A stretch of 25,877 nucleotides of DNA, taken from the IMG/VR virus record IMGVR_UViG_3300039707_000004, positions 1 to 25,877 of that record; one strand, written 5' to 3'. This document shows, in pieces, positions 5,127 through 21,552 of the stretch (positions are counted from its first letter, which is position 1; the number at the start of each line of letters is the position of its first letter). Both the position numbers and the translations under genes were made by a program. This DNA comes from a virus. The notes beneath the pieces are model-generated. The model did no database searches. It saw nothing but the letters and a program-made list of their open reading frames with translations, and had not been told where the DNA came from.

Positions 5127-5279
5127 ATGAAACGCTGGGAAGGTAGTAAAGAGGATGTGCGTCAGGATAAGAGAGAGGCTAAGAAGCGTGGCATGACTAT
5201 GGCTCAGTGGGAGCGGTCGGCCGCCGATAAACGTCAGGATAAAGCCGGCCGTAAGCGAATGAAGAGGAAAAAGAAGTGA
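5127..5279 (+). CDS. Small very basic protein
   Basis: A 50-residue protein (MKRWEGSKEDVRQDKREAKK..., ending MKRKKK) in which nearly half of the residues are Lys or Arg. AGAGGAAG lies upstream, and the TGA overlaps the GTG start of the dCTP deaminase gene (GTGA). Overlap and composition both support translation. Phage-encoded Lys-rich mini-proteins of this kind are common and usually uncharacterised. Nucleic-acid binding is plausible from charge alone. Confidence 0.65.
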   Translation: MKRWEGSKEDVRQDKREAKKRGMTMAQWERSAADKRQDKAGRKRMKRKKK

Positions 5280-5794
5280 GCATACTATCAGCCCAATCGA
5301 TCCGTCACCTATGCTCCCCGGACGAGAAAGAACGCTTTAACTACTCACGGTTAGAGTTCGGCCCCGTACATCCGCTGATTACCCCTTTTGTGGGTGAAAA
5401 GGTTGTCGTCAACGGCAAAAGCTATGGCCTCTCATCCTGTACCTACGATTGTCGTATTGCTGAGTCCATCGTCATTGGACCAACCAAGGCCGCACTCGTA
5501 TCGACAAAGGAATATTTCAGTCTGCCAGCAACAATATGTGGCTCAGTTCTGGACAAATCTAGCCATGCCAGGGTCTTCGTGAGTGCGTTCAACACCCATC
5601 TCGATCCCGGTTGGTGCGGTTATCTAACCGTTGAGCTTGTTAATTTAGGCTATGAGCATATCCGGTTTACCCAAGGTGATCCGCTGTGCCAAATTAAGTT
5701 TGAGTGGTTAGACTACCCGACTGAGATACCCTATAAGGGTAAGTATCAGAACCAAGAGTCCGGCCCACAAGAGGCAAGATACGAGAAACCCTAA
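5276..5794 (+). CDS. dcd: dCTP deaminase / dUTPase family protein
   Basis: A 172-residue trimeric dUTPase-fold enzyme expected to convert dCTP to dUTP (or to a related product), feeding thymidylate synthesis. Visible family motifs are YGLSSCTYDCRI, a substrate loop with DKSSHAR (compare GRSSLAR in bacterial Dcd), HLDPGWCGYLTVELVN containing the conserved catalytic-type Glu, and QGDPLCQIKFEWL. The GTG start overlaps the preceding TGA. The stop codon overlaps an ATG (TAATG) that opens a 12-codon remnant of the original sbcD start, showing that dcd and sbcD were once directly coupled. Confidence 0.88.
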   Translation: MSILSAQSIRHLCSPDEKERFNYSRLEFGPVHPLITPFVGEKVVVNGKSYGLSSCTYDCRIAESIVIGPTKAALVSTKEYFSLPATICGSVLDKSSHARVFVSAFNTHLDPGWCGYLTVELVNLGYEHIRFTQGDPLCQIKFEWLDYPTEIPYKGKYQNQESGPQEARYEKP

Positions 5795-5832
5795 TGTCCA
5801 TGTTACTCGCCTCAGACCTCCTTGTTCCATAG
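5794..5832 (+). pseudogene. Orphaned 5' end of sbcD-like gene
   Basis: The ATG at 5794 opens MSMLLASDLLVP followed by TAG at 5830-5832. Its first nine residues match the first nine of the intact sbcD-like protein starting at 6474 (MSILLASDL) with one difference, although the codons differ at several positions. After codon 9 the reading departs into the leader of the HNH gene. This is best explained as the native start of sbcD, left behind when the endonuclease gene inserted and supplied a replacement 5' end. Confidence 0.8.
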
Positions 5833-5843
5833 GAATCTCCTAT
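5829..5843 (+). promoter_or_regulatory. Hairpin occluding HNH ribosome site
   Basis: A perfect 6-bp inverted repeat, ATAGGA and TCCTAT with a 3-nt loop, pairs the AGGA ribosome site of the HNH gene with bases overlapping its ATG. It would restrict translation of the endonuclease. Hairpins of this kind keep some T4 homing endonucleases low or late; a similar role here is inferred. Confidence 0.45.
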
Positions 5844-6474
5844 GATTAGTGACTTAACTGGATCTACTTTTGGTAGATTGACTGTTTTGTCTATGTTAAG
5901 GCTTAATAAGCATAGGCGTACTGTATGGCTGTGTAGGTGTATTGAAGGTAATTTAGTAGAAGTTGATTCAGGAAGCTTAAAAAGTGGTAATACAACCTCC
6001 TGCGGTTGTTATAGAAAGGAATTGGTTGGTACATCTCGTAGGAAACATGGTAAGTCTTCTACTCCGCTTTATTTTGTTTGGGCTCAAATGAGGTACAGAT
6101 GTTTGAATGAGAGTAACTCTGATTATCCTGATTATGGTGGTCGTGGTATAAGATATTGTAATGATTGGGATTTATTTGAAAAGTTCGATGAATGGGCTAT
6201 AGATAGTGGTTACAAAGATGGTTTAATATTAGATAGGATAGATGTCAACGGTAATTATGAACCTAATAACTGTAGATGGGTAACTGATTTAGATAGCTCT
6301 CGGAATAAGAGGAATAATATAGTTATCCAAGCTTTTGGTGAAAGCAAAAAAATTCATGAATGGTTAAAGGATTCTAAGTGTAAAGTTCCTACTCATAAAA
6401 TCCTGTATGAGAGGATTAAAAATGGGTGGGAATCAGAGAAGGCCATATCAACACCTAAAATAGGTAATAGGTAA
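5842..6474 (+). CDS. Free-standing HNH homing endonuclease
   Basis: A 210-residue phage HNH endonuclease. The N-terminal zinc-type module reads DLTGSTFGRLTVL, then WLCRC and SCGC. The central domain has the family's YFVWAQMRYRC, YGGRGI and CNDWDLFEKF. The catalytic stretch ILDRIDVNGNYEPNNCRWV is followed by RNKRNN. A C-terminal NUMOD-like helix-turn segment (HEWLKDSK, then ILYERIKNGW) ends the protein. It nicks or cuts a target site to spread its own gene. The gene is clearly AT-richer than its neighbours and uses many AGA and TTA codons, supporting recent transfer. It lies between the orphaned and rebuilt starts of sbcD, and its TAA overlaps the sbcD ATG (TAATG). Confidence 0.92.
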   Translation: MISDLTGSTFGRLTVLSMLRLNKHRRTVWLCRCIEGNLVEVDSGSLKSGNTTSCGCYRKELVGTSRRKHGKSSTPLYFVWAQMRYRCLNESNSDYPDYGGRGIRYCNDWDLFEKFDEWAIDSGYKDGLILDRIDVNGNYEPNNCRWVTDLDSSRNKRNNIVIQAFGESKKIHEWLKDSKCKVPTHKILYERIKNGWESEKAISTPKIGNR

Positions 6475-7502
6475 TGAGTATACTTCTCGCGAGTGACTTA
6501 CACCTCACAGACTCATTTAAGGACTCATATAGATGGAATTTGTTACCATGGATAAAGCAATTAGCTATTGAGTATAAAGTTAGTCAAGTTATTTTGCTAG
6601 GAGATACCACAGATAGAAAGGATAACCATAGTTCAATATTGGTCAATAAGTTTATTGAGCAGATAACTGATCTAGCCAATTATGTAGATTGTTTTGTCTT
6701 AAAGGGTAACCACGATGGTATCATCGAGGATTTACCTTATTTCAACTTCATTGAGCACTTCAAAAGCAACGTAACCTTTATCTCAAAGATAACTAATTAT
6801 TGGCTGAGCCTACCGACTCGGCAAAAGTCAATCAATTGTTTATTTCTCCCCTCCACCCGAAAGTGGCAGGAAGACTGGCAAAATATCGATTTCAATCAAT
6901 ACGATTTGGTCTTTACTCACCAAACTTATGAGGGAGCAAAGTCCGAGACCGGGATATCATTGGACGGCATTCCACCATCGTTTTTCGCGAATTACCGTGG
7001 CAAAGTTTACAGCGGAGATGTTCACGTACCGCAAAAACTCCTATCCGGACGCATTGAATATGTGGGCGCACCTTATCGTATTCGTTTTGGTGATGTATTC
7101 CCTCCCCGTATTCTTCTTATTGGGGATAATCTCCGTACAACAAACTTTACTTTTGATTGCCTTAGCAAGCATGTACTTCTTTGTTCATCTGTCGAAACGC
7201 TAGACGAACAGGTCAAATTACATAAGGTAAAGACTAACGATCAAGTCAAAGTGCGTGTTAAGCTGTCACGCCAAGACTTACCTACGTGGAAGAACCTCAA
7301 AGATCAGATCAAGCACAAAGCTGCTGATGAGGGTTGGCAGCTATTCGGTCCGGAATTGTTACCCGTCAATGACGGTCCTGTGTCCGTTGTAAAACAGACC
7401 TCCGTATATAAAAATAGCAGCCAAGTTTTAGCTGACTTCATTCAGGCTAAGAACTTGTCTGGAAAGCAGGCCGAAATCGGCTTCTCACTCATCAAATCCT
7501 AA
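6474..7502 (+). CDS. sbcD: SbcD/gp47-like nuclease subunit (metallophosphoesterase)
   Basis: A 342-residue calcineurin-like phosphoesterase with all expected metal motifs: D8-L-H10, GD at 43-44 with a following D, GNHD at 78-81, H149 in FTHQTYE, and GDVH at 181-184. It should form the nuclease subunit of an SbcCD/gp46-gp47 (Rad50-Mre11) complex with the ATPase encoded at 13309-15150, processing DNA ends for recombination. The first roughly 250 nt are AT-rich like the HNH gene upstream, while the rest matches the operon, suggesting that the 5' end came in with the endonuclease. The ATG overlaps the HNH stop. Confidence 0.9.
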   Translation: MSILLASDLHLTDSFKDSYRWNLLPWIKQLAIEYKVSQVILLGDTTDRKDNHSSILVNKFIEQITDLANYVDCFVLKGNHDGIIEDLPYFNFIEHFKSNVTFISKITNYWLSLPTRQKSINCLFLPSTRKWQEDWQNIDFNQYDLVFTHQTYEGAKSETGISLDGIPPSFFANYRGKVYSGDVHVPQKLLSGRIEYVGAPYRIRFGDVFPPRILLIGDNLRTTNFTFDCLSKHVLLCSSVETLDEQVKLHKVKTNDQVKVRVKLSRQDLPTWKNLKDQIKHKAADEGWQLFGPELLPVNDGPVSVVKQTSVYKNSSQVLADFIQAKNLSGKQAEIGFSLIKS

Positions 7503-7522: not shown

Positions 7523-10500
7523 ATGAAGCAAGTTGGACCTATAACTGCGTTTTCCAATTCGTTGCATCAAATGAAGTACTGCTCACCAGGGGAAGATTTC
7601 CGCGAGGCAATGAATAGGGTAGCGTTTGGTCTAAAGGATTCGGATAACCACTACCATCGACTCAGACACATACTATTACCACAACGATGGTTGCCAGCCG
7701 GACGTGTTCAAGCAGCCGTTGGCTCGACGAAATGGGTTACACTGTTCAATTGTTTTGTTAGCGGTACAATTGCGGATAGTTATGTTGACGGCCCTGGCTC
7801 GATTATGGACAGAGCCAAGGAAGCAGCAGCCACCATGCGGATGGGCGGCGGCATCGGCTACGATTTCACACCCCTGCGTCCACGTGGCGAGATGATCGCC
7901 AAGCTCCAGAGCCAAGCAAGCGGCCCCGTCTCCTTCATGGAGATATTTGATGCCGTATGCCGAGCTACCTGCTCTTCCGGGCATCGTCGTGGCGCACAGA
8001 TGGGTATACTTCGTTGCTTGGATGGTGAGTCGCGAGTTCATACTCTGAACGGTATAGAAAAAATTAAGGATTTGGTAGGTACTCGTCCTTATGTTTATGC
8101 GTGTGATCCTAAGACGCGTAAGGTTCATGTAGTACAAGCGGATAAGGTTTTTGTGTCTGATACCAATAGGAAACTTATTCGTATCGTATTTGATACGAAG
8201 GATTCTATAGACTGCACACCAGATCATTTGATTATGCTCTCAAACGGGGAGTATGTTCAGGTAGGTAAGCTACGCCGTGGTGATAGTATAATGGCAATTA
8301 AGCACGGTATAAACCAGACAGGTAATACTGACCATTTTAGTAAGACTGTAGGGTGTACCAATGGGCGTGCCGAGTATGAACATCGTGTTATTGCTAGAGA
8401 TATTTTAGGTGAAATGGTGGACGCTAATTGGCATGTTCACCATAGAGACGAGGATAGTTGTAATAATGATCCATCTAATCTGGAAATGGTGAACAGGTCT
8501 GAACATGCGAAATCACATGCCAGTAACCTGAATGTTCATAGGTTGAGAATCGCTGCTGAAAGAAAAGGTAAGACCAGGGCTGAACTTTATGGGGAAGAAA
8601 AGGCTGCTTTGTGGGAGGCTCGTCGTGAAGAAAGTCGTAAGAAAACTATATCTAACCATAGGGTGGTAGATATAATACAGATTGGAACGGCTGAGGAAGT
8701 ATTCGACATTTCCTTACCTAAACTCCATAACTTTGCTGTTAGTGGAGTTTTTGTCCACAACTGTGATCACCCCGATATTGAAGAGTTCATTAATGCCAAA
8801 AACAACCAGGATAAGTTGACAGGGTTCAACATCTCGATCGCTGTCACCGATGAGTTCATGGAGTGTGTTCTTGAGGAGAAGGAGTTCCCCCTAAAGTGGG
8901 GTGGTAGAGTATACCGTTACGTTGACGCTAATACCCTCTGGGAAAAGATTATGCGCTCAACGTTCGATTGGGCAGAACCCGGCATCCTGTTCATCGACAC
9001 AATCAACAAGATGAACAACCTCTATTACGCCGAGACGATAGCTGCAACCAATCCATGCTGTTTAACAGGGGACACTTTAGTGGCGGTTGCTGGTCGCGGC
9101 CCGGTTCCAATTAGACAGTTAGCTGAGGAAGCTTCTCCTGTACCTGTATTCGCTAAAAATAAAATGTCCGGTGTAACTCATGTTAGTTGGGGGCGTGCTC
9201 CCCGATGGGTTCGTAAGGCTAACATCGTTAAAATTACTCTTGATGACGGGACTACAGTTCGTTGCTCCGATGACCATCATTTTCCGCTAAGAGATGGCAG
9301 GAGAATTAAGGCAAGAGACCTAAATCCAGGCGACTCACTTTTCCGTTTTGATGCTGAGCGGCATTGGAAAAGTAAGGAAATGATTGTTGATGGTCGCACT
9401 GAGCATCATCTGATTGCTGAGGCTAAGTTCGATCGTGAGTTTGAGTGGGGACAGCATATAGACCAGTTTCAGGTGCATCATATTAACCACAATCATTTTG
9501 ATAATGATTGGGATAATATTGATGTCGTAACTGTTAAGGAGCATCAGCTTACGCACCATCGTCAGGCTATAGCAATCACTGCACAAAATAGGTATGAACT
9601 ACCTGTAAATCATAAGGTTGTATCGGTTGAGCCAGATGGTTTTGAGGATGTCTACAACATATCAGTTGATAAGTACCATAACTATGCTATAGTAACGAGT
9701 GATGTAAAAGGTAAATTGTCTGGTGTTTACACCGAAAACAGTGAACAAGCCCTACCCCCATTCGGTGCCTGCCTACTCAGTTCGTTCAACCTCGTTAAGT
9801 ACCTAACATCACAGCCTGTTCTAGCCGGCAGTAACCCATGGTCATTTGATTATGACCAACTGATTGAGGACATCCCCATCGCCGTACGTGCTCTCGACAA
9901 TGCCATTGACAAAGCGAGATACCCCCTCGCCGAACAGAAAGCCGAAGCCCTCACAAAACGCAGAATGGGTATTGGTATTACTGGCCTCGCAAACACGGCT
10001 GAGGCTATGGGGTTCTCCTACGGATCATCAGACTTCCTGGCCTTTGAGGACAAGGTGCTTAGTACGATCAACGAACACTGCTACCGGGCCTCTGCTGAAC
10101 TGGCTGCTGAAAAGGGTGCCTTCCCGCTTTATGATGAAGATCGTTACCTAGCCGGCCAGTTCATCAAGACCCTGAGCGACGAAACCCAAGACATGATCCG
10201 TCGCAACGGCATTCGTAACAGTCACCTGACATCGATCGCTCCGACAGGTACAATAAGTCTCGCTGCTGACAATGTAAGCTCAGCACTAGAACCTGTCTTC
10301 TCCTACGAGACAACTCGTAGCATCCATACCCCAACCGGCGTCACGATTGAGAAGCTGCAAGACTACGGCTATGCTTTCCTTAACATCAAGGGTAAGCTGG
10401 CTAAGGATGTCACGGCTGATGAGCACCTTAGTGTGCTTGCCGTAGCTCAGAAGAACATCGACTCTGCCGCCTCAAAGACGATCAACATGGACGGCAGGAT

Positions 10501-10708
10501 CATGTCGTGGTCTGAGTTTAAGGACATCTATCGCAATGCCTGGGAGCGTGGCTGTAAGGGTGTAGCCACCTTTAATTCATCCGGCAAACGGATGGCGTTG
10601 CTGACAGGCTCCGAAGAGCCAAAGAAAGAAGAGCCAGAACAGATACAGTTTATCGAGGGTGCGTCGTGTGACTACGATCCGATGACGGGACGCGCTGTCT
10701 GTAACTAA
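7523..10708 (+). CDS. Ribonucleotide reductase, probably class II, with two inteins
   Basis: A 1061-residue precursor that splices to about 585 residues. It reduces ribonucleotides to deoxyribonucleotides for phage DNA synthesis. Extein motifs include LPAGRVQAA, LFNCFVSG (redox Cys77), MRMGGGIGYDFTPLRPRG, GFNISIAVTDEF, the active-site NPC|SEQ (split by intein 2), PPFGACLLSSFNL, and APTGTISLAADNVSSALEP. The compact length, LPAGR and NCFVSG contexts, and absence of a nearby small subunit favour an adenosylcobalamin-dependent (NrdJ-type) enzyme, though class I cannot be excluded by eye. The C-terminus carries two Cys (ASCDYD...AVCN) that could act in re-reduction. A strong hairpin follows the stop. 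Confidence 0.93.
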   Translation: MKQVGPITAFSNSLHQMKYCSPGEDFREAMNRVAFGLKDSDNHYHRLRHILLPQRWLPAGRVQAAVGSTKWVTLFNCFVSGTIADSYVDGPGSIMDRAKEAAATMRMGGGIGYDFTPLRPRGEMIAKLQSQASGPVSFMEIFDAVCRATCSSGHRRGAQMGILRCLDGESRVHTLNGIEKIKDLVGTRPYVYACDPKTRKVHVVQADKVFVSDTNRKLIRIVFDTKDSIDCTPDHLIMLSNGEYVQVGKLRRGDSIMAIKHGINQTGNTDHFSKTVGCTNGRAEYEHRVIARDILGEMVDANWHVHHRDEDSCNNDPSNLEMVNRSEHAKSHASNLNVHRLRIAAERKGKTRAELYGEEKAALWEARREESRKKTISNHRVVDIIQIGTAEEVFDISLPKLHNFAVSGVFVHNCDHPDIEEFINAKNNQDKLTGFNISIAVTDEFMECVLEEKEFPLKWGGRVYRYVDANTLWEKIMRSTFDWAEPGILFIDTINKMNNLYYAETIAATNPCCLTGDTLVAVAGRGPVPIRQLAEEASPVPVFAKNKMSGVTHVSWGRAPRWVRKANIVKITLDDGTTVRCSDDHHFPLRDGRRIKARDLNPGDSLFRFDAERHWKSKEMIVDGRTEHHLIAEAKFDREFEWGQHIDQFQVHHINHNHFDNDWDNIDVVTVKEHQLTHHRQAIAITAQNRYELPVNHKVVSVEPDGFEDVYNISVDKYHNYAIVTSDVKGKLSGVYTENSEQALPPFGACLLSSFNLVKYLTSQPVLAGSNPWSFDYDQLIEDIPIAVRALDNAIDKARYPLAEQKAEALTKRRMGIGITGLANTAEAMGFSYGSSDFLAFEDKVLSTINEHCYRASAELAAEKGAFPLYDEDRYLAGQFIKTLSDETQDMIRRNGIRNSHLTSIAPTGTISLAADNVSSALEPVFSYETTRSIHTPTGVTIEKLQDYGYAFLNIKGKLAKDVTADEHLSVLAVAQKNIDSAASKTINMDGRIMSWSEFKDIYRNAWERGCKGVATFNSSGKRMALLTGSEEPKKEEPEQIQFIEGASCDYDPMTGRAVCN
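8015..8761 (+). mobile_element. Intein 1 in ribonucleotide reductase, HNH type
   Basis: Residues 165-413 (249 aa), starting at Cys in ILR|CLDGE and ending VHN|C, with Cys414 as the downstream nucleophile. The Hint blocks are present: block A CLDGESRVHTLNG, block B with TPDH, and F/G FDISLPKLHNFAVSG...HN. The middle holds an HNH homing domain (WHVHHRDEDSCNNDPSNLEMV, about residues 303-325). The flanks rejoin as MGILR|CDHPDIEEF, a conserved reductase segment. The insert is visibly AT-richer than the exteins. Confidence 0.92.
9059..9739 (+). mobile_element. Intein 2 in ribonucleotide reductase active site, HNH type
   Basis: Residues 513-739 (227 aa), from Cys in NPC|CLTGDTLV to EN|S, with Ser740 as the downstream nucleophile. 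Removing it restores NPCSEQALPPFGACL, the catalytic loop, so the reductase should be inactive until splicing. Block B reads VRCSDDHHF and block F is VYNISVDKYHNYAIV. An HNH domain occupies about residues 648-680 (FQVHHINHNHFDNDWDNIDVV). The penultimate residue is Glu rather than the usual His. Confidence 0.9.
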
Positions 10709-13308: not shown

Positions 13309-15150
13309 ATGCAGTTACTATTCAACGAACTGATCGTTAAGAATTTCGGCTGCTTCGTAGGTGAGCACAGCTTCTTACTCAAACGTACTCCTGGCCTTTA
13401 CTTCATCAGCGGCAACAACGTAGCCGAACCTAGCCTAACAACAAACGGCTGTGGCAAGAGCACATTGTTTAACGCCTTATTCTGGTGCCTAACTGGCAAG
13501 ACCCTAAGAGTTCAGCGTCCTGGTGCCTCAATCGAATCCTGGCATTCTAAAGGCACAGTCAGTGTTACGCTAGAGCTAGAGATTGAACGTATTCACCACA
13601 TCACACGCACTCGTAAGCCTAATACATTAACCCTAGATGGCCGAACCGTGGACCAAGCTATCATCAATGACCTACTTAAGCTCAACGAAGAAACCCTCAA
13701 ACGAACCATAATCGTTGGGCAGTTCGCCCCAATGTTCCTAGACCTGAGACCGGAGCAGCAATCTGCCCTGTTCTCGGAAGCTCTGAACCTTGACCTATGG
13801 CTGACGGCTTCTGATCGCGCGGCAACCGAGCATAAACGATGCGAGACGCAAATCAACAAGCATGAATTAGCCAAAGCTGCGTTGATTGGACGCCACGATC
13901 AACTTCATGACCAGTACACACTGGAAGTAGAGCGTGAAAAGACATATGCCGAGAACCATAAGCGACAAATCTCAGAGGTTCGTCACGCGCTTGCCGTTGC
14001 TAGTCGCGACATAGACGCCGCTGCTGCCGCGCTTAGAGCCGCGACAGACGCGCGAAACAGCGAGACCGCGACCGGGGTAGCTGCCACGGAATTGCAGCGC
14101 GTACGCTCGCTAGAACGCACGCTATCGCGAGAACAAATTGAGACCGTCGCAAGCGTCCGAGCCATGCGCCGCGAGTTGGATTTAGTCACTACTAACCTCA
14201 AACGTTATCAGTCTACCAAGGAGGTCTGTCCGGAGTGTCATCAAGTGGTTAACGAGGCTCATATCAAGAGTAAGATCAGTCAACTGATACAACAGCATGG
14301 TGAACTGCTAGAGGATGTTGGTAGGGCTGAAAAATCCAGTAACGTCATTGCTGAAAAGCTGATCAAGTGTCGAAAGGATATTGCCCACATAGAAGAACAG
14401 ACGGCTCACGAACATGCTCAGCAAGAAGCTGCCGCCAAGGATTACCATATGGCGAAGCGTAAGCTTGACATCGCGACTTACCATCAGACTGACCTCACGC
14501 ATCAATTTAACACACTCATTAAGGCTAAGAACCCTTACACAGCTAGTTGTGAACAGCTAGCTGAATCCTATTTCGATGTTGAGAAGCAGATAAAGGCTAC
14601 TGACGAACTCCTCAAGGAACTCAACGAGACTAGCTCCATCTACAAGTACTGGGTATCAGCCTATAAGGAAATACGCCTTAATCTGATCGATGAAACCCTA
14701 CAAGAACTAGAGATAGCCACAAACAAACACATGCAATCGCTAGGATTACAAGATTGGCAAATTGAGTTCCGTACTGAAAAGGAGAATAAATCAGGTACAG
14801 TCACACACAGCTTTAACACGCTGATCTATCCAAATGGACAGACAGCGCCGATTATGTTTGAAGCCTATTCTGGTGGGGAGTCACAAAGGTTGCAGTTAGC
14901 TGTAACAGCGGCCCTCTCAGAGATCCTCCTAGACCGAGCCGGTGTCACAACCAACATTGAGATACTCGATGAGCCCTCCCGGCACCTCTCACAAGAGGGT
15001 ATCGCCGACCTGCTAGAGTGTCTCCGGGAGCGAGCTATTGATTTACGCCGGTGTATTTATTTTATCGATCACAACTCCCTAGAAAGTGCCCACTTTGATC
15101 GGATTATCACGATCGAAAAGCGACAATCCGGCTCTCTGATACTCAGCTAA
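13309..15150 (+). CDS. sbcC: SbcC/gp46/Rad50-like ATPase subunit
   Basis: A 613-residue SMC-type ATPase. The P-loop has the phage-type expanded form, GNNVAEPSLTTNGCGKST at residues 35-52. Long heptad-rich coiled coils follow, with a zinc-hook C307-P-E-C310 at the tip, then the ABC signature SGGES at 521-525 and Walker B ILDEPSRHL with D554-E555. It would tether and gate DNA for the SbcD-like nuclease (6474-7502). The two genes are about 6 kb apart rather than adjacent as in most phages. TTGAGG lies upstream of the ATG. The stop abuts the stop of the convergent XRE gene with no gap. Confidence 0.92.
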   Translation: MQLLFNELIVKNFGCFVGEHSFLLKRTPGLYFISGNNVAEPSLTTNGCGKSTLFNALFWCLTGKTLRVQRPGASIESWHSKGTVSVTLELEIERIHHITRTRKPNTLTLDGRTVDQAIINDLLKLNEETLKRTIIVGQFAPMFLDLRPEQQSALFSEALNLDLWLTASDRAATEHKRCETQINKHELAKAALIGRHDQLHDQYTLEVEREKTYAENHKRQISEVRHALAVASRDIDAAAAALRAATDARNSETATGVAATELQRVRSLERTLSREQIETVASVRAMRRELDLVTTNLKRYQSTKEVCPECHQVVNEAHIKSKISQLIQQHGELLEDVGRAEKSSNVIAEKLIKCRKDIAHIEEQTAHEHAQQEAAAKDYHMAKRKLDIATYHQTDLTHQFNTLIKAKNPYTASCEQLAESYFDVEKQIKATDELLKELNETSSIYKYWVSAYKEIRLNLIDETLQELEIATNKHMQSLGLQDWQIEFRTEKENKSGTVTHSFNTLIYPNGQTAPIMFEAYSGGESQRLQLAVTAALSEILLDRAGVTTNIEILDEPSRHLSQEGIADLLECLRERAIDLRRCIYFIDHNSLESAHFDRIITIEKRQSGSLILS

Positions 15151-19617: not shown

Positions 19618-21552
19618 ATGAGTGATCTTAGTGGTGGTGATATCTCACCAATGGAAGAGTTTCTCGAACCTATCATGCGGTTGACGCGTGATATCAAGTC
19701 AGCCGCGTTTACCTTAGGGGACGACGAGGCAAGGTTTCTGGTAGACTTTTACTACATCATCCAGGAAGACCGGAAACGGTCCTATGCACAAGTCCGTGCC
19801 CTGGAGACCAACCAGGAACCAAATGAAATCATCACGTGGTTTGCTGGTCAGTCGAAGCGCTTTGAGAACGAGATTAAGGAAGTTCTCAACGTCTACACGA
19901 CCAACCACGAGATGGGACAATACATGCGTTGTTCGCCTGCTGGATCAGAGGTGAGAACGACGTTTCGGACCTACGAAAAGATAGAAAATCTTGAAACCGG
20001 CCAGTCGGTTACGTCGTTTGATCGGCAAGGTTCGTACCTTACGAAGCCTCAGCTTATTGAGGTTGCATCGAGACCTTATCATGGTGATTTGGTATTGTTG
20101 ACGTGTGACGCTACGTCAACAAGGACAACGCCAAATCATAGGTGGTTGGCTAAGCTTGATAAGAGCAAGGATGCTGGTGTTGTTGTCTACCTGATGCGGT
20201 CCGGTGATAAGTTCCGTGTTGGTCGTTGCTCTTTTTTCACGAAGGCAGCTAAGGGTTCCTGGCTTGTTAATTTGCGGCTACGGGCTAGTCAGGAACAGGC
20301 GTCTGTATGGGTTCTGAAAACGTTCTCATCAACCTATGAGGCTAACATCTACGAAGACTTTGTGTCCACTCATTATGGGTTAACCGAGTGGCAGTTTAAG
20401 CCTTATCGTGGTAATCACGGTGGGCTTGTTGACCAGAGAGCAACGGATAAGTTGTTTCGTATGCTTGACGTTAAGGCTCAGTACGAGCGTGCGGCACAGT
20501 GTTTGCTTGACCATGGTAAGCACATTGACTTTCCGTTCTGGTCATGGACCGGATCAGTCAAGAAGCAAAGCCCAACACAAGCGATTGAAACGGCTGCTTA
20601 TAACCTGATGCCGGATGTGATGCTTGTGCCTGTGCCAACTAGTAGTTTTGGAAAGGTTGATTGGATACCGATAACTGACCTTTCCCGAGAACGTTATGAT
20701 GGGCTTGTCTATAGCTTGGATGTAGCAAGACATCATAAGTTCATCCAGGATGATGTAATAACCTGCAACAGTATCTACGGCATCGGCCCGGTACTCAGTG
20801 CCGGGTTGCTCGCTCATATCGACATCTCCAAAGCGAGCACGGTCGGCAAGATATGGCAGTACGCTGGTATCGCCGGTCCTATTGCCTCAGTCGATACCAT
20901 GCGCTTCCAGTATCGCGTAACCTTTGACTACGAGGTTGACTTAAACAACCCACCGAAGCTCATGCTAGAGAAGAAACAGGAAGCTATTTACCTTTTCCCG
21001 GACGGTGAGACCGAAGAGGGTAACAGTATCCTTCTCTATCAGGTTATCTTACCCGGTGATGAGAAGCCGCCTAAGGTCGTGGCACCGAACAACATCACCT
21101 ACGTATGTACGAAGAAAGTGCTGTCCGGTCAGACTCCCTGGCTGAAAGGACAGAAGCGTCCGTTCAATGCTAACCTCAAGGTTCTGCTCTGGAAGGTAGG
21201 GCAGAGCTTCATGAAGTTCAGCAATCGGCCTGAATGCTACTACGGTAAGGTCTACCGCGACCGCAAGATTTACGAAATCGAGCGTAACGAAGCTGGGGAG
21301 TTAGCGGAACAGGCTGCGGCTAAGTTGCTCGTCCTTAAGGATAAGACCACGGACGTTTACAAGTGCTACGAGTCTGGTAAGCTGCCGCCCGGTCACATTG
21401 ATGCCAGGGCACGTAGGTATGCGGTGAAGCTGTTCCTCGCCCATATGTGGGAGACTTGGTACAAGCTGCACTTCAAAAAGGAGCCGCCGAAGCCCTATCC
21501 GATTGCGATCCTGGGCCATGCGGATTATATCCCACCGCCAGTGAAACTCTAA
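19618..21552 (+). CDS. Transposase_20/HhH-domain DNA-binding protein with intein
   Basis: A 644-residue precursor giving about 364 residues after splicing. Residues 1-104 are helical. Directly after the intein, SIYGIGPVLSAGLLAHI...VGKIWQYAGIAG matches the helix-hairpin-helix domain at the C-terminus of IS110/IS116/IS902 transposases (Transposase_20). The remainder ends RRYAVKLFLAHMWETWYKLHF...AILGHADYIPPPVKL, as in phage proteins often labelled 'transposase'. The catalytic DEDD/RuvC-like N-terminal domain of IS110 is not visible, so I read it as a structure-specific DNA-binding protein, not an active transposase. AACGAGGA precedes the ATG. Non-coding arrays lie on both sides of the gene. Confidence 0.8.
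   Translation: MSDLSGGDISPMEEFLEPIMRLTRDIKSAAFTLGDDEARFLVDFYYIIQEDRKRSYAQVRALETNQEPNEIITWFAGQSKRFENEIKEVLNVYTTNHEMGQYMRCSPAGSEVRTTFRTYEKIENLETGQSVTSFDRQGSYLTKPQLIEVASRPYHGDLVLLTCDATSTRTTPNHRWLAKLDKSKDAGVVVYLMRSGDKFRVGRCSFFTKAAKGSWLVNLRLRASQEQASVWVLKTFSSTYEANIYEDFVSTHYGLTEWQFKPYRGNHGGLVDQRATDKLFRMLDVKAQYERAAQCLLDHGKHIDFPFWSWTGSVKKQSPTQAIETAAYNLMPDVMLVPVPTSSFGKVDWIPITDLSRERYDGLVYSLDVARHHKFIQDDVITCNSIYGIGPVLSAGLLAHIDISKASTVGKIWQYAGIAGPIASVDTMRFQYRVTFDYEVDLNNPPKLMLEKKQEAIYLFPDGETEEGNSILLYQVILPGDEKPPKVVAPNNITYVCTKKVLSGQTPWLKGQKRPFNANLKVLLWKVGQSFMKFSNRPECYYGKVYRDRKIYEIERNEAGELAEQAAAKLLVLKDKTTDVYKCYESGKLPPGHIDARARRYAVKLFLAHMWETWYKLHFKKEPPKPYPIAILGHADYIPPPVKL
19930..20769 (+). mobile_element. Intein in HhH gene with GIY-YIG-like insert
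   Basis: Residues 105-384 (280 aa), from MR|CSPAGSEV to TCN|S. Hint block B is TTPNH (H174) and block F is YDGLVYSLDVARHHKFI; the end is CN rather than HN. No LAGLIDADG or HNH motif is seen. The insert instead carries VVYLMR (188-194) and FRVGRC (199-204), spaced like a GIY-YIG pair, followed by EANIYEDFVSTHYG. Splicing restores QYMR|SIYGIGPV, at the conserved HhH hairpin. Confidence 0.85.

Follow-up and report, generated by a model that had tools for sequence, protein, structure and literature searches.

A displaced sbcD start beside an HNH endonuclease gene in an uncultured phage, and its possible origin by homing

To our knowledge, homing by free-standing phage endonuclease genes usually leaves no mark of the site of break and repair. 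The locus studied here, in an uncultured phage, raises the question of why an HNH endonuclease gene should stand between two copies of the start of one and the same gene, sbcD, and of where the second copy came from. The window, that is, the whole stretch of DNA that was analysed, is an entire IMG/VR virus record of 25,877 bases. It contains a replication and repair block made up, in this order, of clamp-loader-like, gp32-like, RecA-like, PDDEXK, dcd, HNH, sbcD and nrdJ genes, with sbcC further on. The features that matter for the argument are the following, in window positions.

5276..5794, + strand: dcd-like gene (dCTP deaminase family), the upstream neighbour (Pfam DCD, 4e-17; PHROG dCTP deaminase, 9e-38)
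5794..5832, + strand: displaced start of the resident sbcD, codons 1-9 encoding MSMLLASDL (5794-5820), followed by LVP and TAG (sequence; score comparison; break between D8 and H10)
5821..5841, + strand: left junction and HNH leader, with a Shine-Dalgarno-like AGGA at 5831-5834, 7 nt 5' of the HNH ATG (sequence; GC break at 5822)
5842..6474, + strand: intact, AT-rich (GC 0.349) gene for an HNH homing-type endonuclease (PHROG 374 HNH endonuclease, 4e-63; family-invariant residues kept)
6474..7502, + strand: intact sbcD, encoding an SbcD/Mre11-type phosphoesterase subunit, with the start MSILLASDLHLTD and a TAATG overlap with the HNH stop (Pfam Metallophos, 1e-12; PHROG SbcD-like, 2e-30; active-site residues kept)
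6474..6803, + strand: putative donor-derived 5' segment of sbcD, its right end uncertain, at 6741-6803 by composition and possibly as far as the gene end (GC and codon usage)

The two starts of sbcD

The last base of the dcd stop (TAA, 5792-5794) is also the first of an ATG at 5794 (TAATG), which opens a frame of 12 codons, MSMLLASDLLVP-stop (5794-5832; ATG TCC ATG TTA CTC GCC TCA GAC CTC CTT GTT CCA TAG), exactly as an earlier note on this DNA had described. The stop of this stub lies 9 nt before the HNH ATG (5842), with AGGA (5831-5834) between them. The HNH ORF encodes 210 aa, and the last base of its TAA (6472-6474) is again common to the next ATG, that of sbcD (6474), an intact gene of 342 aa. 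Sequence and ORFs thus also bear out the description of a complete sbcD, starting with MSILLASDL, directly after the HNH gene and overlapping it as TAATG.

Does the stub derive from sbcD? Scored against the sbcD start, it reached 36, the next best of the 654 ATG-started nonamers in the window (sbcD itself aside) being at 17; among 29,721 ATG-started nonamers of other loci, only true sbcD starts came within 12 points of its score. A search of the 1.5 kb upstream of sbcD in 75 relatives returned no second copy of their own sbcD start (0/75), and the best upstream match there amounted to 56% of the self score, as against 92% here. D8 and H10 were invariant when the protein was aligned with nine relatives; the stub ends after D8-L9 and before the histidine codon, that is, inside the catalytic D-x-H motif. 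Judged by its sequence, the stub is the displaced start of sbcD and of no other gene, and the score comparison and the upstream search of relatives together show two copies of one target-gene terminus flanking the HNH ORF. A 12-codon frame existing independently of sbcD, an observation that the earlier note had set against its own reading, was not seen.

The earlier note had also claimed that the copies are one residue apart with several synonymous differences, and a direct comparison confirmed it: the two starts are identical in 8 of 9 residues and in 15 of 27 bases. The single residue difference is M3 versus I3. Five of the eight common residues are written in different codons (S2, L4, A6, S7, L9), both serines switching between TCN and AGY, and the same codon serves only M1, L5 and D8. 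By codon log-odds, the stub is core-like (-2.7) and the second start neutral. Neutral decay was simulated by scattering twelve base changes at random on each copy (300,000 draws each), and at least 8 of the 9 residues were kept in 1 and 0 of the draws, from either copy respectively. Because neutral decay almost never gives 8/9 residues together with 15/27 bases, the copies most likely grew apart while each served, under selection, in a working gene of its own, most simply in two phage lineages, and were joined only later. The comparison supports an origin of the second start from a diverged sbcD, and not from a recent duplication. Nothing speaks more strongly for a donor than this divergence in bases as against residues, and it does not depend on composition.

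The HNH gene and the relatives of sbcD

The HNH protein matches the HNH endonucleases of PHROG 374 over nearly its whole length (4e-63) and keeps zinc-finger-like cysteines and other family-invariant residues; NCBIfam, Pfam and PDB sequence searches with it gave no match. Its relatives occur in 984 phage records, the family being scattered among phages. These observations support the placing of the gene in a homing-type phage family, with homing activity and specificity as predicted properties. A survey of 169 other HNH places, of which 136 have a downstream gene that could be used, brought up no clear duplication of a target start. Four loci (two of which are the same sequence) reached or exceeded the score of the window, through matches that are longer, much weaker and do not start at a gene start. 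A separate candidate came from locus L220, where the C-terminal stretch of a small ORF is seemingly repeated just after an HNH gene (L220:206-277 and L220:1012-1083; 11/23 aa, 41/69 nt); as a mirrored, C-terminal displacement it was too weak, it may be a tandem paralogue, and it was left out of the count.

A 9-mer, AGTGACTTA, is present near the starts of both the HNH gene (5848-5856) and sbcD (6492-6500) and nowhere else in the window, 0.2 being expected; two copies arose in 3 of 100 shuffles. It partly encodes the family-typical DLTG, and the pair is possibly a trace of recombination, or else chance. Elsewhere in the window, the nrdJ-like ribonucleotide reductase gene (7523-10708) apparently holds two inteins with HNH_3-type endonuclease domains, in stretches that are likewise AT-rich (GC about 0.42). 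The protein encoded at 19618-21552 has an intein-like domain (Pfam Intein_splicing, below the cut-off), and we take the sequence after this domain (GIGPVLSAGLLAHI...) to resemble the helix-hairpin-helix part of IS110-type transposases.

The sbcD product retains the SbcD phosphoesterase motif residues D8, H10, D44, N79, H80, D81, H149 and H184, and an SbcC-like partner gene is found at 13309-15150. From sbcD to this sbcC, further downstream, it is 5.8 kb, with nrdJ and opposite-strand genes in between; in most relatives, sbcC follows sbcD within about 2 kb. Viral and genome contigs yielded about 85 relatives of sbcD, none above 43% protein identity over the matched part, and 44 further phage records hold more distant ones. 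The surrounding module (ssb-like, recA, PDDEXK, sbcD, sbcC) is conserved in relatives. Among the about 85, all at or below 43% protein identity, sbcD is intact and is in no case preceded by dcd or directly by an HNH gene. A recA-based scan for uninserted relatives found none, a dcd-based scan found dcd genes without sbcD, and a degenerate scan for an uninserted MSMLLASDLH allele was empty. At the DNA level, the matches listed among phage records extend over no more than about 240 bases, in nrdJ. As neither an uninserted relative nor a donor turned up in the collections searched, a single contig is the basis for reconstructing the event.

A possible route of insertion and its alternatives

We propose, with a probability of about 0.72, that a free-standing HNH homing gene reached the 5' end of the resident sbcD through break-induced recombination, the partner being a diverged phage that already carried the HNH gene directly upstream of its sbcD. 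Cleavage by the enzyme would have fallen at about codon 9-10 of the resident gene, within the conserved D-x-H motif. On the right, the broken end would then have been repaired by homology with the donor sbcD, with copying that began somewhere within the donor gene and ran back over its start and the HNH gene with its ribosome-binding site; the left-hand end, which had no homology, would have been joined just before the HNH leader. In the product, dcd would be followed by the first nine codons of the old sbcD as a stub, then by the HNH gene and a complete sbcD with the donor start. The host gene would survive because the start/stop overlaps keep this string of genes plausibly co-translated, the stub handing ribosomes over to the HNH gene. 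We infer the cut site, the direction of repair, the donor and the function of the overlaps from the product itself. The mechanism explains where the stub lies and where exactly it ends, why a complete second start follows, how the two starts came to differ at synonymous sites and how the AT-rich block arose. The TAATG overlap suggests that translation of the gene string was kept, including the "restored coupling" put forward in the earlier note. Its central proposal, endonuclease invasion with a co-converted donor segment, is supported in part, by the displaced sbcD start, the homing-type family of the HNH gene and the diverged second start; phylogeny contributes no donor (AU test, p=0.81).

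How far into sbcD would the donor tract reach? Two-break GC segmentation of 5276-7502 set one edge at 5822, two bases past the ninth codon of the stub, and the other at 6803, inside sbcD (GC.495/.347/.446). The composition break within sbcD on which the earlier note had staked its reading is thus present, with a permutation p of 0.017 in sbcD alone, and a shortfall in GC of the first 86 codons, compared with the remainder, at least as large as the one here occurs in 1 of 80 relatives. The AT-richness claimed for the sbcD 5' end is, however, modest. A GC3 change-point inside sbcD was not significant (p=0.28). Codon usage is HNH-like up to about codon 89 (nt 6741), with a break that is borderline (p=0.048) and that has a counterpart in another gene of the window (p=0.01). 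The remainder of sbcD is AT-rich too, at GC.432, other genes being at about.49. Because there is a GC break near 6803 and such a difference between the 5' part and the rest is rare in relatives, the evidence leans towards a donor tract of about 270-330 nt, covering part of the gene, rather than one that spans all of sbcD.

The low GC of the whole of sbcD would also suit a cassette exchange, in which an HNH-sbcD module replaced the entire resident sbcD by ordinary or illegitimate recombination just inside the start; cutting would not be required, and the donor tract would be the whole gene. So would the place of sbcD between dcd and nrdJ, and not close to sbcC as in most relatives, and so would the phylogeny, for which the earlier note had suggested comparing the 5' end with the rest: trees of residues 1-109 and of the remainder were poorly resolved, with best matches that differ by name, and the 5' data, with no close relatives to draw on and a stub too short for a tree, did not reject a placement among the relatives of the 3' part (AU test, p=0.81), so that no significant conflict emerged. 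Set against this exchange, the break near 6803 and the 1/80 of relatives speak for a partial tract, and we regard it as unlikely, albeit the best of the alternatives.

A translational relay is a much poorer candidate for the origin of the stub. The 12-codon frame would then be a leader peptide, retained and selected for passing ribosomes from dcd to the HNH gene, and its TAATG overlap with dcd, the short distance of 9 nt from its stop to the HNH ATG and the intervening AGGA are all in line with this. Overlapping starts are moreover usual for sbcD in relatives, with a 4-nt overlap in 29 of 57. A relay explains the coupling, but not why the peptide should be an sbcD start, with 8/9 residues the same in differing codons; it may be a role that the stub took on secondarily rather than its origin.

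It is more improbable still that the HNH gene sits in a self-splicing intron after codon 9, splicing of which would join MSMLLASDL to HLTD. The break does fall between codons and at the same residue in both copies. Yet the Rfam search returned no intron family, either at the gathering threshold or at E<=1, so no self-splicing intron was recognised, and no conserved ribozyme core was found. The HNH gene has its own start and stop, and the downstream gene has a complete start of its own. Group I introns usually end in U (exon) and G (intron-final), which the presumed ends here, exon C and intron-final A, do not fit. Finally, a simple tandem duplication of the sbcD start at insertion, followed by drift, would give the same layout but is hardly credible, being contradicted, unless the stub was always under coding selection, by neutral simulations that reached 15/27 bases with 8/9 residues at most once in 300,000.

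Comparison with known systems

Under the preferred reading, in which homing brought a donor start into sbcD, the stub is a short relic of the resident gene that fixes the left junction with almost single-base precision and points to replacement from a diverged gene. The locus would then show how a homing gene can settle among conserved active-site codons and leave its target intact, and it offers a testable cut site. It suggests that such invasions can swap a gene start without breaking the gene. As a generalisation, which we put forward tentatively and consider doubtful as yet, free-standing HNH genes of phages may travel with the 5' part of their target, the incoming start restoring a target that is functional, co-translated and no longer recognised by the enzyme, and the old start being left as a relay peptide. 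If this holds, distant phages would repeatedly exchange gene starts by way of such invasions.

Replacement of a gene terminus by an endonuclease is known from fungal mitochondria and co-conversion is known from T4; a displaced target start in a phage is apparently new, no example having been found described in the open-access papers searched. In T4, the free-standing homing endonucleases SegF, SegG and MobE have their flanking sequence co-converted, and the start of mobE overlaps the upstream stop as UAAUGA (PMC2988022). The present locus is similar in that a free-standing phage endonuclease gene adjoins its presumed target gene. However, the T4 cases are described with converted flanks and not with a broken stub of the target on the far side, which is present here.

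In Tremella, duplicated N-termini have been described around mobile introns (PMC7315562). There, as here, an N-terminal fragment of the host gene is duplicated around a mobile element, and partial replacement from a foreign source is proposed (PMC7315562). The Tremella elements are mitochondrial introns or intron relics, whereas our locus has no intron signature and its downstream copy has its own start codon (PMC7315562).

The same signature is seen with endonuclease ORFs of fungal mitochondria, which brought foreign C-termini and displaced the native ones, leaving copies of low DNA and high protein identity (PMC3630166). Hybrids with such mobile ORFs comprise Allomyces atp6, Rhizopus atp9, Mortierella cox2 and Glomus atp6, atp9, cox2 and nad3, and the Glomus atp6 copies share 63.5% DNA identity and 91% protein identity (PMC3630166). 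In the phage too, the endonuclease ORF would have arrived with a foreign terminus of its target, the native terminus being displaced beyond the ORF, and the copies are diverged in DNA and conserved in protein (15/27 nt vs 8/9 aa). In the fungal hybrids, the C-terminus was replaced, in mitochondria and by LAGLIDADG or GIY-YIG endonucleases, whereas here it would be the N-terminus, in a phage, with an HNH endonuclease and with overlapping start and stop codons. The locus would thereby extend the fungal-mitochondrial mode of gene-terminus replacement to phages.
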